A DNA stretch of 64,000 bases, taken from NCBI RefSeq assembly GCF_000336775.1, contig NZ_AOLJ01000019.1, forward strand, positions 1 through 64,000, read 5' to 3'. The position numbers and the translations under genes were made by a program. The DNA comes from Haloferax gibbonsii ATCC 33959. GTDB lineage: Archaea; Halobacteriota; Halobacteria; Halobacteriales; Haloferacaceae. Below are positions 36,379 through 52,609 of the stretch, piece by piece; position 1 is the first letter of the stretch; the number at the start of each line of letters is the position of its first letter. Below the pieces are notes generated by a model. That model saw only the letters and a list, made by a program, of their open reading frames with translations. It was not told the DNA's origin and made no database searches.

Positions 36379-39300
36379 GTGTTACCGTCCCCCACCGTGC
36401 TCTGTCTGAGTGACGACGGCGAGTTCGCGGCGTCCCTCGACTCGTCGCTGTCGTCGCTCGACGGAGCGACGACCGTCCGGCACGTCCGCACCCCCGCCGC
36501 GGCGCGCGCGGAACTCGTTTCCGCCTCGGCGGCCATCTCCTGTATCGTCCTGGCCGCCCCCACGGCGGCCGGCGACGAGGGGGCGTTCGTCCGCGACATC
36601 TACGCCCAGGGTATCGACGTCCCGGTCGTCGTCGCGGCCGCCGACCAGGAGACCGCGACCCGCGCGGTCGAAGCCGGCGCGACGGACTACGTCGTCCGCG
36701 ACGACGACCCCGAGACGATGTCGTGGCTCGCCTTCCGCGTCGAGCGGGCGCTCGGCGAGTGCACCCTCGCTCGGAGCCACCGGGACCGAATCGAACAGCA
36801 GCGCGTCGTCTCCGAAATCGGAACGCGGGCGCTGACCGCCGTCGACCTCGACTCGACGCTCGACCACGCCGCGAGTCGCGTCCGCGACGTGCTCGACGCC
36901 AGTTCGGTCACGATTTTCGAGGGCCTCGACGACGGCGCGTTCCGCGTCGCCGCCGCCGCGGGCTGGTCGGCGAATCGGGACCACGGACTCGCCGCGGCCG
37001 GGGGGACGCAGGCGGTCGAGACGTACCGGTCCGGGCGTTCGACGCTCGTCGACGACTTCGACGACGACGAGCGCTTCGAGCACGCGAGCGACGCGGGCCC
37101 GTCGGGACCGAAAAGCGGAATGAGCGCGGCCATCGGCGGCGACGACACCCGGTGGGGAGTCATCGCCGTCCACGGCGTCGCCAGCGGGCAGTTCTCCGAC
37201 GACGACGTGCTCTTCTTGGAGAACATTGCCGCCGTCGTCGGCGCGGCGACCGAACGGCACGAGCTGAAAAGCGCCCTCTCGGAGGTCTTAGAGCGGATGG
37301 ACGAGGCGGTGATGGGGTTCGACGCGGACTGGCGCGTCACCTACGTCAACTCGACGGCCGAACACGGCCTCGGGATGTCGGCCGAGGCGGTGTTGGGGAC
37401 GCGAATCTGGGACTCGGTGCCCGAGTCGGCCGTCTTCCGCGAGGAGTTCGAGCGCGCGATGGAGCGACAGGAGCCGGCGACCTTCGAACAGTACTACGAC
37501 CGCCTCGAAACGTGGTACGCGGTTCGGGCGTACCCCTCAGAGACGGGGCTGTCCGTCTACTTCACCGACATCACGGAGCAGTTGGAACACGAGGTCGAGG
37601 CCGAGCAGTACGGGCGGATGCTCGCGGCCGTCGCCGACGCGGTGTACGCGCTGGACGACGAGGGTCGGTTCGCGGCGGTCAACCCCGCGTTCGAGCGCCT
37701 CACCGGACTCGACCGCGACCGCGTCATCGGGTCGTCGACGGCGTTGCTCACCGAGAACGCGAGCGCGACCGACGGCAGCGACGAGGCGTTCGCGTCGACC
37801 TCGCAGGGAATCGTGGAGTTGGACCTGCGGACGCCCGACGAGGGGGTCGTCAGAGTCGAGGACCACCGGACGCCGCTGGTCGTCGGCGGGGAGGAGGTCG
37901 GCTCGGTCGGCGTCCTCCGCGACGTGACGAAGCGACACCGCTACGAGCGCCTGCTCGCGACGCTCCACGACCGGACCCGAGAGATGATGGGCGCGACCGA
38001 CCGACAGGCGGTCCTCCGGGCCGCCGTCGACGCCTGCGACGAGGTGCTCGGCGACGCCCGGACGGAGCTGTTCGTCTTCGACGAGGCGGACACGAGCCTC
38101 GTCCGGGTCGGCGCGGCCGGAACCGGCCTCGGCGACAAGCCGGTCGGGGGCGGCCTCGACCGCGGCGGGGTCTGGGACGCGTTCGTCTCCGGCGAGGTCC
38201 GGGTGGTCGAACTCGCGCCCGACGGGGGCGTCGTCGACGGCGTCGAGCGCGTCATCGCCGCGCCGCTCGGTCGTCACGGCGTCCTCGTCACCGGCCACCC
38301 CGGCACCGTCGCGCCAGACGAGGTCGACGTGGAGCTCGTGAACCTGCTTTCTGCGACCGTCGAGGAACTGCTCGACCGAATCGACGCCGAGGCGGAGCTA
38401 CGCGAGCGCGACCGGCGGCTCGAGGCCCAGAACGAGGCGCTCACCCGACTCGACCGAATCAACGCGACCATCCGGAACATCAACCAGTCGCTCATCCGCG
38501 CGCCGACCCGCGGCGAGGCGCTTTCGGCCGTGGCCAAGCACCTCGTCGACGCCGACGACTACGCCATCGTCTGGCACGCAGAGGCCAGGGACGTAGACGA
38601 GACGTACCGGCCGACGAGCGACGCGGTCCACGGCGCTGACACCGCCTACGCCGACCGGCTCGGAGAGGTGGCGTCCGCTGAGCCGCTGTTTCCCCTGCTC
38701 GAAGCCGCCGTGGAGACCCGGGAGATACAGGTGGTAGCGGACGTGCTCGACGACCCCGCGTGGGCCGACCACCGAGGCGACGCCCTCAGCTACGGGTTCC
38801 GCGCTATCGCGGTCATCCCCGCGGTCGCCGACGACCGGGTGGAGGCGCTGTTCGTCGTCCACGCCACCGACCCGGACGCCTTCGCCGACGACGACGGCCT
38901 GCTCACCGACCTGGGCGAGACGGTCGGCTACGCCCTCGCGGCCACCGGGCGCGCCGACGCCATGCTGACCGAGCGCCGGACGGACGTGCAGGTACAGCTC
39001 GGCGGCGACCGGCTGTCGCTGTCGCGGCTCGCCCGGCGCGTCGGCCGCGCGGTGAGCCTCGGCGGCGTCATCCCGAACTCCGACGGCTCCGTTATCGCGT
39101 TCGTCACCAGTGACGCGGAACCCGAGGAGGTCGTCGCCGCCGGGCGGGACATCGCGACGCGCGTGCGCCACGTCTCGACCGACGACTCGGGGTCCCTGTT
39201 CGAACTCCGCCTCCCGCGGGAGTCGCTGTTCGAGACGCTGTACGCCTCGGAGGCGACCCTGCGCGCGCTCGACGCGACGCCGACCCAGACCACGCTCACC

Positions 39301-39618
39301 GCCGAGGTGCCGGAGCGAATCCGGGTCCGGTCGTTCGTCGACGCGCTCGACTCGAACTACCCGGGGACGAGTCTGCTGTCGCGGCGGACCGCGGACGACG
39401 GCACCGAGTCGCCGCAGACGTTCGCCGCCGAGATGCGCGAGGCGTGGACGAGCCGGCAGTACGAGTCGATTCGGGCGGCCCACCTCTCCGGATTCTACGA
39501 GTGGCCGCGCCGCAGCACCGCCGAGACGCTCGCCGAGACGTTCGACATCAGCGCGCCGACCTACCAGTACCACCTGCGCGCGGCCGAGCGAAAACTGGTC
39601 GGGCGCGTCTTCGAATGA
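36379..39618 (+). CDS. Multi-sensor Bat-like HTH-10 transcriptional regulator
   Basis: 1079 residues from a GTG start. Domains by eye: receiver-like (1-125), GAF (about 140-300), PAS (305-410), PAS (412-520, opening MLAAVADAVYALDDEGRF), GAF (530-675), a coiled segment (677-715), GAF (720-860) and a bacterio-opsin-activator C-terminal domain (870-1079). The HTH-10 helix pair is RRSTAETLAETFDISAPTYQ. The receiver appears degenerate: the strand that should end in the phosphorylated Asp reads SCIVLAAPT. It therefore probably integrates small-molecule or redox/light signals, with output by DNA binding. It is not next to bop or carotenoid genes. Confidence 0.9.
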   Translation: MLPSPTVLCLSDDGEFAASLDSSLSSLDGATTVRHVRTPAAARAELVSASAAISCIVLAAPTAAGDEGAFVRDIYAQGIDVPVVVAAADQETATRAVEAGATDYVVRDDDPETMSWLAFRVERALGECTLARSHRDRIEQQRVVSEIGTRALTAVDLDSTLDHAASRVRDVLDASSVTIFEGLDDGAFRVAAAAGWSANRDHGLAAAGGTQAVETYRSGRSTLVDDFDDDERFEHASDAGPSGPKSGMSAAIGGDDTRWGVIAVHGVASGQFSDDDVLFLENIAAVVGAATERHELKSALSEVLERMDEAVMGFDADWRVTYVNSTAEHGLGMSAEAVLGTRIWDSVPESAVFREEFERAMERQEPATFEQYYDRLETWYAVRAYPSETGLSVYFTDITEQLEHEVEAEQYGRMLAAVADAVYALDDEGRFAAVNPAFERLTGLDRDRVIGSSTALLTENASATDGSDEAFASTSQGIVELDLRTPDEGVVRVEDHRTPLVVGGEEVGSVGVLRDVTKRHRYERLLATLHDRTREMMGATDRQAVLRAAVDACDEVLGDARTELFVFDEADTSLVRVGAAGTGLGDKPVGGGLDRGGVWDAFVSGEVRVVELAPDGGVVDGVERVIAAPLGRHGVLVTGHPGTVAPDEVDVELVNLLSATVEELLDRIDAEAELRERDRRLEAQNEALTRLDRINATIRNINQSLIRAPTRGEALSAVAKHLVDADDYAIVWHAEARDVDETYRPTSDAVHGADTAYADRLGEVASAEPLFPLLEAAVETREIQVVADVLDDPAWADHRGDALSYGFRAIAVIPAVADDRVEALFVVHATDPDAFADDDGLLTDLGETVGYALAATGRADAMLTERRTDVQVQLGGDRLSLSRLARRVGRAVSLGGVIPNSDGSVIAFVTSDAEPEEVVAAGRDIATRVRHVSTDDSGSLFELRLPRESLFETLYASEATLRALDATPTQTTLTAEVPERIRVRSFVDALDSNYPGTSLLSRRTADDGTESPQTFAAEMREAWTSRQYESIRAAHLSGFYEWPRRSTAETLAETFDISAPTYQYHLRAAERKLVGRVFE

Positions 39619-39668
39619 TAACATACCACATGAGAACCAGCGATACCAGCTGATTTTCAGTTACGGTT

Positions 39669-39704
39669 CTAGGTACCTAGAGGTGGCGCGCGCGCCACCA
39701 CTAG
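39669..39704. promoter_or_regulatory. Tandem perfect palindromes with three CTAG sites
   Basis: CTAGGTACCTAG (39669-39680) is a perfect 12-nt palindrome. It shares its right CTAG with a second palindrome, 39677-39704, whose core GGTGGCGCG/CGCGCCACC (39682-39699) is perfect and whose outer CTAG arms pair, with one A/A mismatch at 39681/39700. It lies 51 nt after the regulator stop and 76 nt before the HalOD1 start. It could be an operator, a terminator stem or a methylation target. Confidence 0.6.
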
Positions 39705-39722
39705 TTGGATAGCAGCGACCGA

Positions 39723-39728
39723 TATATT
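39723..39728 (+). promoter_or_regulatory. TATA box of the HalOD1 gene
   Basis: TATATT lies 52-57 nt before the ATG at 39780, implying a leader of roughly 27 nt. It is 19 nt from the edge of the palindrome at 39677-39704. Confidence 0.5.
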
Positions 39729-39779
39729 CACGAACGTCGTCGGCTCGGATGTCGGCGAGGCGCCGACGCGAACCGAACC

Positions 39780-40127
39780 ATGGACGAAACTCGCGTGTTA
39801 CCGGGCAACGATGTGGGATGGAATACGGGGACGACCGACGAGGTCGTCGCCCGACACGACTGGAGCGGACGAGACACCCTCGCGGTGACCGTCGTCACCG
39901 CGGCCGCCCAGTTGCGAGACGTGGACGCCGTCGACCTCCCGCCGCTGTCCGAGACTATCGACCCCGACGCGCTCTGCCAACTGTTCGCTCCGCTGGCGCG
40001 GGCACCGGCGACGGACGGCGGCACCCGCGGGTCGGTCGTCCCCTCGCGCGGTCGAATCGGGTTCCGGTACGCTGCCTGCGACGTGACCGTCTGGGCCGAC
40101 GGAACGGTCATCGTCAAGTCCGCCTGA
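39780..40127 (+). CDS. HalOD1 output-domain protein
   Basis: 115 residues from ATG. The HalOD1 domain, a haloarchaeal signalling output of unknown mechanism, is recognised by TTDEVVARHDWSGRDTLAVTVV, then LPPLSETIDPDALCQLFAP and the ending FRYAACDVTVWADGTVIVKS. Usually these stand alone or fused to receivers. Its nearest neighbour is the multi-sensor regulator 160 nt upstream in the same direction, but a palindrome and a separate TATA box intervene. Confidence 0.88.
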   Translation: MDETRVLPGNDVGWNTGTTDEVVARHDWSGRDTLAVTVVTAAAQLRDVDAVDLPPLSETIDPDALCQLFAPLARAPATDGGTRGSVVPSRGRIGFRYAACDVTVWADGTVIVKSA

Positions 40128-40358
40128 CGCATCGACACACGAACGAATCGGTATCACCACCACCCACCACCACACGACGCGGCACCTCGTTCGGTGCCGC
40201 GAGAGCCGACCGTCGCCCGCGACCCACCCACCACCGCGCGGGCGACGCGGCCACATTTCCTTCGACGACCGACGACGCCGACGCGGCGCGACGCAACGCG
40301 ACAGAGCACGACGCGAGAGTGCGACGGGTTTTGGTACACAGAGCCGCTACCGGAGGGC

Positions 40359-40856
40359 ATGGGATACGCCTGTCCGGTCTGCGACGCGCCGCAGCGCGAC
40401 GAGACGCACCTCGCGAACCACCTCGCGTTGCAGGCCATCGTCCACGGCGACGACCACGAGACGTGGCTGGACGAACACGTCCCCGAGTGGAGCGACCTGA
40501 ACGCCGACTCGCTCGGCCCGCTCGTCTCCGACCTCGCCGAGGAACGGGAGTTCGACGAGGTGTTCGAGGACACGGTCGACCGCACGGGAGGCCGAGGTCA
40601 CGGTCACGACCACAATCACGGCCACGACATCCCCGACCGACAGCCGCAGCAGTTCGGCGGCTCCGGCGGGTCGCAGTCGCTGTCTGGCGACGCGGCGCGC
40701 ATCTTCGAGGAGGCGCAGTCGCTCACCCGCGAGATGTACGAGGAGGGAGAAGACGGCGAGGGAACCGGCGACGACGAGCACGCGGGGCGTGACGACGCCG
40801 GCGACGCCGGTGACGCCGACAGTGCCGACGACGACGCGGACAGGAAAGAGTCGTAA
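40359..40856 (+). CDS. Zinc-finger haloarchaeal protein (DUF5810-like)
   Basis: 165 residues from MGYACPVCDAPQRDETHLAN. CPVC at positions 5-8 plus His17/His21 (HLANHLALQ) form a C2H2-like zinc site. The middle has a His-rich run (RGHGHDHNHGHDIPD) that may bind metal. The C-terminus is a helix (AARIFEEAQSLTREMYE) followed by a very acidic tail. I recall the family as DUF5810. First gene of a run DUF5810-DUF5809-NUDIX-rhodanese. Confidence 0.85.
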   Translation: MGYACPVCDAPQRDETHLANHLALQAIVHGDDHETWLDEHVPEWSDLNADSLGPLVSDLAEEREFDEVFEDTVDRTGGRGHGHDHNHGHDIPDRQPQQFGGSGGSQSLSGDAARIFEEAQSLTREMYEEGEDGEGTGDDEHAGRDDAGDAGDADSADDDADRKES

Positions 40857-49849: not shown

Positions 49850-52609
49850 ATGAACGCGGACGCCCAGCGGGAGGCGGTGTACGGCGCGCCGCCGGAGATG
49901 CTGGAAGTGCGGGACGACCTGACGCCGATGCTCTCGCAGTACGCCGACCTCTGTGCGGAACACGACGACGCCGTCGTGCTGTTTCAGGTCGGCGACTTCT
50001 ACGAGGCGTTCTGCGGCGCGGCGGAGGCCGTCGCCCGCACCTGCGAGGTGACGCTGACCCAGCGCGAGGACTCCACCGGGACGTGGCCGATGGCGGGCAT
50101 CCCCATCGACAACGCCGCGGGCTACCTCGAACGCCTGCTCGACGCCGGCTACCGGGTCGCGCTCGCGGAACAAGTCGAAGACGCCGAGGAGGCGTCCGGG
50201 CTCGTTGACCGCGCCGTCACCCAACTCATCACGCCCGGCACCGTCGTCGACGAGGAACTGCTCGACGCCGGGCGGGCGACCTACCTCGGCGCGGTCGCTC
50301 GGGGCGGCGGCGACGCCGAGAGCCGCGACAGCGACGCCGAGGACGACACCGACACCTACGGCCTCGCCGTCGTGGACGTGTCGACCGGCGAGTGCCTCGT
50401 CACCGGGGCGGACCGCGCGCTGGCGCTCGAAGAACTGGAGCGCCTCGCGCCCGCCGAACTCGTCGTCGGCCCCGACTGCGACCTCCCGGACCTCTCGTTC
50501 GACCCGATGGAGACGCCGTTCGAACCGGGGGCGTTCGACGCCGACGCGGCCCGCGAGACGCTGTCGGCGTACGCGCCCCGGCCGGACGCCGTGGTCGAGT
50601 CGGACGCCGAACTCCGGGCGGTCGGCGCGGCGCTCGCCTACGCCGAGTACGCGCAGGGCGACTCGACGCTAGAGTACGTCACCCGCGTCACGCGGTTCGA
50701 CCCCCGCGAGTTCCTCCAACTCGACGCGACGGCCATCCGGAGCCTCGAACTGTTCGAGTCGCGGAGCGCCCGCGCCGGAAGCACGCTGTTTTCGGTCCTC
50801 GACGAGACGGCCTGCGCGCTCGGCCGCCGCCGACTCGAGGCGTGGCTCCGCCGCCCGCTCGTCGACCGCGACGAAATCGAGGCCCGACTGGACGCCGTTG
50901 ACGCCCTCTGCGACGACGCGCTCGCCCGCGCCGACCTCCGAGAGCACCTCTCGTCGGTGTACGACCTCGAACGGCTGGTCGCCCGCGTCTCCCGCGAGCG
51001 CGCCGACGCCCGCGACCTGCGCTCCCTGAAGACGACGCTCGACCGGGTTCCGAAGGTCCGCGAGGAGGTCGGAACCGGTTCCGACCTCCTCGCGGACCTC
51101 CGCGACTCGCTGGACGAACTCGAAGACGTGCGCGACCTCGTCGGCGACGCAATCGTCTCCGACCCGCCCCAGGAGATTACGGAAGGCGGCGTCATCGCCG
51201 ACGGCTTCGACGCCGAGCTGGACGACATCCGCGGCACCGCCGAGGCGGGCCGCGAGTGGGTGTCGAACCTCGAAGCCCGCGAGCAGGAGCGCACCGGCAT
51301 CGACTCGCTGGAGGTCGGCTACAACCAGGTCCACGGCTACTACATCGAGGTGACGAATCCGAACCTCGACCGCGTCCCCGACGACTACCGGCGCCGCCAG
51401 ACGCTGAAGAACTCAGAGCGGTTCTACACGCCCGAACTGAAGGAGCGCGAAGACGAGATTCTCCGCGCCTCGGACCGCGCCGACGCCCTCGAATACGACC
51501 TGTTCTGCGAGGTTCGCGCCGACGTGGCGACCGAGTCCGCCCGGATTCAGGCCGTCGCCGACGCCCTCGCCGACCTCGACGTGCTCCGGACGCTCGCGGA
51601 CGTGGCGGTGGCGAACGACTACGCCCGCCCCGAGTTCCACGCGGGCGACCCGACCGACGAGCACGGCGGTATCCACATCGACGGCGGCAGACACCCCGTC
51701 GTCGAGCGCGCACAGGACGAGTTCGTGCCGAACCCCGCCGACCTCCCGCGGGGGAGCGTCGCGCTCGTCACCGGCCCCAACATGTCCGGGAAATCGACGT
51801 ACATGCGGCAGGTCGCGCTCGGCTGCGTCCTCGCGCAGGTCGGGAGCTTCGTCCCCGCAGCGTCGGCCCGACTGCCGGTCCTCGACCGCGTGTTTACCCG
51901 CATCGGCGCGTCCGACGACATCGCGGGCGGGCAGTCGACGTTCATGCGCGAGATGAGCGAACTGACCGAAATCCTCCACAACGCCACCGGCGACTCGCTC
52001 GTCCTCCTCGACGAGGTCGGCCGCGGCACCTCCACCGCCGACGGCCTCGCCATCGCCCGCGCGGCCACCGAGTTCCTGCACGACGAGGTCGGCGCGACGA
52101 CGCTCTTTGCGACCCACTACCACGACCTCACCGACGCGGCCGACGACCGCGAGGGCGTGTTCAACCTCCACTTCACCGCCGCGCGGCGCGACGGCGAAGT
52201 CACGTTCCTCCACAGCGTCGCCGACGGCCCGTCCTCGTCGTCTTACGGGGTCGAAGTGGCGCAGTTGGCCGGCGTGCCGGCGAGCGTCGTGGCGCGCGCT
52301 CGGGACCTCGTGGACGAGACTGACCCCGAGAGCGCGGACGACACCGAAGGCGATGGCGTCGCCGCCGCCGCGAACGGCGAGGTCGCCGAGGCCGCCGAAG
52401 ACGGCACGCTCGCGGCCTACGTCGATGGGTTGGAGAACGGCCACCGAGAGAGCGAGAGTCCGAACCGAGCAACTGCGACGACCGCGACGGCCGAACCGAC
52501 CCCCGAGCTCGAAGCCGTCGCCGAGGCGCTCCGCGAGGCCGACCTCGCGGACACTACGCCGCTGGAGGCGCTGAACCTCCTCTCCGACCTCAAAGGGAAG
52601 CTCGAATGA
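49850..52609 (+). CDS. mutS: DNA mismatch repair protein MutS
   Basis: 919 residues from MNADAQREAVYGAPPEMLEV; a 36-residue in-frame extension upstream lies over the promoter. MutS1 layout: mismatch-binding domain I with VVLFQVGDFYEAFCG (the F-x-E wedge, GDFYE) near residue 44, connector, lever (from about 270), clamp, and ATPase with TGPNMSGKSTYMRQ, DEVGRGTSTADGLA and TTLFATHYHDL. The C-terminal HTH-like region contains an acidic Glu/Ala linker before TTPLEALNLLSDLKGKLE. Recognises base mismatches. Overlaps mutL by 4 nt. Confidence 0.96.
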   Translation: MNADAQREAVYGAPPEMLEVRDDLTPMLSQYADLCAEHDDAVVLFQVGDFYEAFCGAAEAVARTCEVTLTQREDSTGTWPMAGIPIDNAAGYLERLLDAGYRVALAEQVEDAEEASGLVDRAVTQLITPGTVVDEELLDAGRATYLGAVARGGGDAESRDSDAEDDTDTYGLAVVDVSTGECLVTGADRALALEELERLAPAELVVGPDCDLPDLSFDPMETPFEPGAFDADAARETLSAYAPRPDAVVESDAELRAVGAALAYAEYAQGDSTLEYVTRVTRFDPREFLQLDATAIRSLELFESRSARAGSTLFSVLDETACALGRRRLEAWLRRPLVDRDEIEARLDAVDALCDDALARADLREHLSSVYDLERLVARVSRERADARDLRSLKTTLDRVPKVREEVGTGSDLLADLRDSLDELEDVRDLVGDAIVSDPPQEITEGGVIADGFDAELDDIRGTAEAGREWVSNLEAREQERTGIDSLEVGYNQVHGYYIEVTNPNLDRVPDDYRRRQTLKNSERFYTPELKEREDEILRASDRADALEYDLFCEVRADVATESARIQAVADALADLDVLRTLADVAVANDYARPEFHAGDPTDEHGGIHIDGGRHPVVERAQDEFVPNPADLPRGSVALVTGPNMSGKSTYMRQVALGCVLAQVGSFVPAASARLPVLDRVFTRIGASDDIAGGQSTFMREMSELTEILHNATGDSLVLLDEVGRGTSTADGLAIARAATEFLHDEVGATTLFATHYHDLTDAADDREGVFNLHFTAARRDGEVTFLHSVADGPSSSSYGVEVAQLAGVPASVVARARDLVDETDPESADDTEGDGVAAAANGEVAEAAEDGTLAAYVDGLENGHRESESPNRATATTATAEPTPELEAVAEALREADLADTTPLEALNLLSDLKGKLE

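Follow-up and report, generated by a model that had tools for sequence, protein, structure and literature searches.

A conserved tandem of CTA-N6-TAG dyads beside a Bat-like HTH_10 regulator gene in Haloferax, a putative upstream activating sequence of a HalOD1 gene

Bat is a regulator made up of GAF, PAS and helix-turn-helix (HTH) domains, and its putative site, the upstream activating sequence (UAS), lies 5′ to the bop gene (PMC1447603). Of known elements, the one nearest to the site that we describe here is the bop UAS of Halobacterium salinarum, which has an ACTAG-type core near the TATA region and a GAF/PAS/HTH regulator from the same family. Our site is a CTAG-rich tandem of two dyads (positions 39669 to 39712) between a Bat-family regulator gene and a stand-alone HalOD1 gene in Haloferax gibbonsii ATCC 33959, within the first 64,000 nucleotides (nt) of contig NZ_AOLJ01000019.1, a 64-kb stretch hereafter called the window. 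This locus likewise has an ACTAG (39700-39704), a TATA box (39721-39728) and an adjoining Bat-family gene, whose control of the HalOD1 gene we infer. No binding site is described for HTH_10 regulators beyond the bop UAS in the literature searched.

Comparison with bop was made through an orthologue that is 92% identical to H. salinarum bop. Upstream of the bop orthologues, the TATA region is preceded by ACTAG-type sites (CTAGGTTGGTAT, CTAGTTTGGTAC and CTAGTGTGGTAT; compare dyad 2 at this locus, CTAGTTGGATAG), and at two loci (L121 and L124), an HTH protein with the motif GFFEWP ends within the CTAG of this site. The consensus of the bop UAS is reportedly ACCcnactagTTnG; the ACC...TTGG flanks of bop-type elements are not retained across Haloferax, where the window reads CCACTAGTTGG but CTAGCCAG, CTAGTCAG or CTAGGCAC are found in other members of the genus. 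The HalOD1 site differs from the bop UAS in having two dyads at a fixed pitch of 31 or 32 bp and in its apparent target, HalOD1 rather than bop; no tandem partner dyad was evident in the bop orthologue upstream regions compared.

The site also resembles the CsmR motif of Haloferax volcanii, TATCA-N4-TGATA, a semi-palindromic dyad upstream of the transcription factor B recognition element (BRE) and TATA box, but that motif has other half-sites, is reported as a single dyad, and has several targets, as opposed to the one site per genome found here (PMC13286277). The HalOD1 protein itself is related to DdfA, the disk-determining factor of Haloferax volcanii (PMC10869688); because its match to the NCBIfam DdfA model NF053557 reaches 59 bits (E = 3.1e-16), below the 70-bit cutoff, we regard it as a DdfA relative and not DdfA itself. 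A Haloferax volcanii locus-tag search for the regulator-HalOD1 pair returned unrelated genes only.

We consider that the tandem is probably the UAS of the HalOD1 promoter and that two dimers of the adjacent Bat-like regulator would occupy its two CTA-N6-TAG dyads. The two dyads match at all 12 half-site bases with a spacing of 32 bp; they lie just 3′ of an HTH_10 gene whose product carries the motif GF[FY], and a TATA box follows them. The product of this upstream gene has both features of the HTH_10/Bat family, a BAT domain (PF15915; 3.4e-28) and a C-terminal HTH_10 domain (PF04967; 1.6e-17). The parts of the locus are as follows.

36379..39618, + strand: Bat-family regulator gene; 1,079 amino acids (aa), with GAF, PAS, BAT (PF15915) and C-terminal HTH_10 (PF04967) domains and a GFYEWPR motif; putative binder
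39644..39648, + strand: invariant TACCA block, within ATACCAGCTGATTTTCAG, upstream of the dyads; all five adjoining columns are unchanged across 15 Haloferax genomes
39668-39681: perfect palindrome TCTAGGTACCTAGA, 14 nt
39669..39680, no strand: dyad 1, CTAG-GTAC-CTAG; general form CTA-N6-TAG; part of the 12/12 tandem match that is unique per genome
39669..39712, no strand: whole tandem, putative operator; 44-nt imperfect inverted repeat, two dyads, 32-bp pitch
39682..39699, no strand: GC-rich spacer core, the 18-nt palindrome GGTGGCGCGCGCGCCACC; perfect in close relatives only
39700-39705: perfect palindrome ACTAGT, 6 nt
39701..39712, no strand: dyad 2, CTAG-TTGG-ATAG; follows dyad 1 at a pitch of 32 bp; similar to the core of the bop UAS
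39721..39728, + strand: TATA box GATATATT, predicted from consensus, 9 nt past the end of dyad 2
39751..39767, + strand: hairpin GTCGGCGAGGCGCCGAC of the HalOD1 leader; the predicted transcript start lies there or close by
39780..40127, + strand: stand-alone HalOD1 gene; 115 aa, PF18545 (1.6e-17); proposed target

The regulator-HalOD1 gene pair is present in all 15 of the Haloferax genomes compared, and when every locus is set in one orientation, the sequence from dyad 1 through the TATA box can be aligned gap-free as TCTAG-N4-NTAGAG, N16, ACTAG-N4-NTAGCA, and then ATATAT or close variants. The CTA/TAG half-sites are invariant throughout (CTAG and TAG in dyad 1), and CTAG is retained at its three places in 15/15, 14/15 and 15/15 genomes. 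Column identity averages 0.93 in dyad 1, 0.90 in dyad 2 and 0.95 in the TATA box; 13 of the 21 columns in the hairpin zone (39748-39768) are invariant. A search pattern built from the 12 half-site bases only, with 19 to 20 nt between the dyads (CTA-N6-TAG, N19-20, CTA-N6-TAG), matches exactly once in each Haloferax genome (15/15), always at the HalOD1 site.

An initial annotation of the window had singled out three CTAGs within 36 nt, which are indeed present (starting at 39669, 39677 and 39701), framing palindromes of 18 and 12 nt, of which the 18-nt core is perfect as described and the second is 14 nt long. Three perfect palindromes abut from 39668 to 39705, and 39669-39712 taken whole is a 44-nt imperfect palindrome with five mismatched pairs. 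The same annotation held that an equally high CTAG density throughout, or a lack of conservation, would speak against the site; CTAG is in fact depleted, with 13 copies in the window versus 68 ± 7.5 expected from dinucleotide shuffles (three within 36 nt would arise with P of ~1e-4 if 13 CTAGs were placed randomly in 64 kb), and the dyads are kept in every Haloferax genome. Its emphasis on the 18-nt core did not hold up. With a mean column identity of 0.71, this is the least conserved part of the site; in contrast to the invariant half-sites, the striking GC palindrome is restricted to close relatives and decays in more distant Haloferax, and we rejected it as a functional palindrome. It is extremely improbable, too, that the regulator mRNA ends in a terminator or RNA hairpin whose stem is this palindrome: the perfect GC-rich palindrome does lie 64 nt past the regulator stop codon, but the most conserved parts of the site lie outside it, and its lack of conservation in more distant Haloferax, together with the absence of a T-run after it, led us to discard this reading. 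A repetitive element was likewise ruled out, since neither palindrome recurs genome-wide above chance when up to three mismatches are allowed.

Across the order, the CTAG-anchored tandem pattern matched 31 of 392 genomes. In addition to the Haloferax matches, fifteen belong to one genus of another family (g39), in which dyad 1 contains the regulator stop codon and the tandem is followed by a gene for an 87-aa HalOD1 protein; in two genomes of another group (g40), the tandem lies at the end of an HTH_10 gene and upstream of a REC-HalX gene. One match (L058), with no adjoining HTH_10 gene, is probably due to chance, and a second match in genome G059 looks like a chance occurrence as well. A systematic test used 80 named loci with the same HTH class, collected by HTH similarity. 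A perfect 12/12 tandem occurs just 3′ of the regulator stop in 31 of the 80 loci, versus none in 1,600 shuffles, and the best tandem score in control windows placed 1 kb further on at the same loci is 9/12. The two dyads stand 31 bp apart in 26 loci and 32 bp apart in 15, against 0 to 2 loci at each of 28 to 30 and 33 to 35 bp.

The linkage is to one class of HTH_10 protein and not to the family at large. The H. gibbonsii genome has 34 HTH_10 matches, and among the 30 genes checked, only the regulator at 36379..39618 has a tandem, which rules out CTAG dyads as a general mark of HTH_10 genes. The tandem-linked HTH_10 proteins compared all carry GF[FY], and the paralogues within the H. gibbonsii genome carry GY; the linked regulators of Haloferax and Natrialbaceae have in common the recognition-helix region SxPTYxYHLRAAERKL. 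A second adjacent HTH_10-HalOD1 pair occurs in the same genome (contig C11:156643-157152), with no CTA-N6-TAG dyads between the genes.

Homologous sites in other families often have CTAA...TTAG or CTAT...ATAG, not CTAG. Natrialbaceae dyads are CTAA...TTAG, with a TATA-like TATAYTTAA directly after, and the Halogeometricum locus L183, where a similar HalOD1-like gene adjoins and the DUF5810-like neighbor is shared, has CTATTCGAATAG as dyad 1. Since these related sites keep the layout, CTAG is best seen as one version of the half-site and not its conserved essence. A Haloferax-like dyad 1 (TCTAGCCACCTAGAG) also occurs 3′ of an HTH_10 gene in Halomicroarcula rubra (L175), where the next CTAG is 35 bp off, not 32.

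These variants bear on the idea, put forward in the initial annotation, that the operator is methylation sensitive, with N4-methylcytosine (m4C) at the three CTAGs switching regulator binding. Its premise is sound in that C(m4)TAG is made by HVO_0794 in Haloferax volcanii (PMC5867850), an orphan methylase system for which the three CTAGs here would be potential substrates. In one Haloferax strain, 58 to 69% of CTAG sites are methylated and CTAG is enriched within 75 bp upstream of starts (PMC11001535), and the H. gibbonsii genome encodes a single N6_N4_Mtase, a candidate methylase bearing a TSPPY motif. The near-complete retention of CTAG at the three places in Haloferax also fits. However, the tandems of Natrialbaceae and Halogeometricum lack CTAG with the layout intact, and a Haloferax volcanii strain without methylation grew without defect (PMC5867850). 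Methylation sensitivity drew no positive support and is very improbable as an account of the site; as the family-wide motif needs no CTAG, methylation would be at most a Haloferax-specific layer. In the literature searched, we found no known operator of the tandem-dyad kind that depends on CTAG m4C methylation.

The product encoded after the tandem changes among lineages. It is HalOD1 in Haloferax, in the Haloarcula-type genomes, and at further loci L190 and L208. At about 30 Natrialbaceae loci, the tandem is instead followed, at a constant 36-nt offset, by a noncoding hairpin with a C-rich tail (TGGCGATCT...TGTCGCCACCCCCAATCCCCCCACCCCC), which sits behind the tandem and TATA box (L149-L189), about 75 nt past the regulator stop in many of them (e.g., L156 and L164). 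An Rfam search with this hairpin found no family, tRNAs being the only matches, and we regard it as a candidate small RNA. The Haloferax leader hairpin (39751-39767) lies at about the same offset from dyad 2. Tandem and hairpin-RNA cassettes are also duplicated without a preceding regulator gene at five loci, at offsets counted from the regulator stop (L156, +337; L162, +330; L164, +500; L166, +404; L178, +322), which shows that the tandem is not merely a feature of the regulator 3′ end. Seven Natrialbaceae loci (L156, L159, L160, L162, L168, L169 and L174) have a weaker tandem (11/12) some 2.2 kb ahead of the regulator stop, either shortly before the regulator gene or close to where it begins, which hints that the regulator controls itself in Natrialbaceae. 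Haloferax gives no such hint. The initial annotation had the operator controlling either the HalOD1 gene or the upstream regulator; the latter is unlikely in Haloferax, since the site follows the regulator gene, over 3 kb away from where that gene starts, and the genome holds no second tandem. The reading as an operator lying upstream of HalOD1 is well supported by the conservation of the site, its uniqueness in the genome, the adjoining TATA box and the HTH_10 linkage.

In the mechanism that we propose, dyads 1 and 2 would each hold a dimer of the Bat-like HTH_10 regulator whose gene directly precedes them, the two perhaps binding cooperatively; with the dyad centers 32 bp apart, or approximately three helical turns, both dimers would lie on one face of the DNA. 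The protein at dyad 2, which ends 9 nt before the TATA box, could help to recruit transcription factor B (TFB) and TATA-binding protein (TBP), as has been proposed for the bop UAS, and the GAF and PAS domains of the regulator could tie HalOD1 expression to a signal. The adjacent regulator most likely controls HalOD1 as an activator, a sign that we favor on the strength of the bop precedent and of where the site lies, upstream of the TATA box. The main rival, a repressor operator at which the adjacent HTH_10 protein blocks TFB and TBP at the HalOD1 promoter until a signal arrives, is unlikely, and what speaks for it is how little separates dyad 2 from the TATA box: 9 nt in Haloferax, 4 to 5 nt in L059 and L060, and about 2 nt in Haloarcula-type loci. 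It is still less likely that another factor binds (e.g., one of the other HTH_10 paralogues, a TFB variant or the HalOD1 protein) and that the adjacency of the HTH_10 gene is incidental. The genome does contain about 30 other HTH_10 genes, but in several families it is HTH_10 genes of the GF[FY] class that this tandem follows, while the product changes from HalOD1 to REC-HalX to hairpin RNA, which counts for the adjacent regulator as the binder.

Several points weigh against a tandem UAS bound by the adjacent regulator. Binding by that protein and control of HalOD1 are proposed from sequence comparison, and a site this near the TATA box could suit a repressor equally well; in the Haloarcula-type loci, dyad 2 stops only about 2 nt short of it. 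The weaker half of the 80 HTH_10 loci are mostly without a clear tandem, so that some members of the class would recognize other sequences, and kinship among loci gathered by HTH similarity inflates the counts, though families and downstream genes vary. Two caveats concern the initial observation: the 18-nt palindrome alone is unremarkable, given that perfect palindromes of at least 18 nt number four in the window versus 1.7 expected, and CTAG clusters elsewhere in the genome, with 53 CTAG pairs separated by no more than 30 nt and with groups of three or four on contigs C3 and C6. It is conservation, not clustering, that sets the CTAG-rich site apart from chance.

A wider reading, to which we give roughly even odds, is a module in which a sensory Bat-like HTH_10 regulator, a tandem CTA-N6-TAG putative operator and a single dedicated output (HalOD1, REC-HalX or the C-rich hairpin small RNA) are joined, the output having been exchanged in evolution; in Haloferax, the CTAG half-sites could add m4C sensitivity. 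The pitch of three turns is rigid, and the tandem often overlaps the regulator's own stop codon. We found no such haloarchaeal regulatory module in the literature searched. HTH_10 regulators are numerous in haloarchaea, and the tandem would give one class of them a precise recognition sequence and geometry from which targets can be predicted genome-wide; it would also tie the widespread, uncharacterized HalOD1 proteins to a dedicated sensor-regulator and suggest that the same control extends to a conserved candidate small RNA in Natrialbaceae.

Two other features of the window stand apart from the tandem. Immediately 3′ of the HalOD1 gene (40128-40360) are CCACC-rich stretches and hairpins that differ among Haloferax species, and at 51054-51099 there is a 46-nt perfect palindrome (AGGTCCGCGAGGAGGTCGGAACCGGTTCCGACCTCCTCGCGGACCT) that far exceeds the other palindromes of the window.
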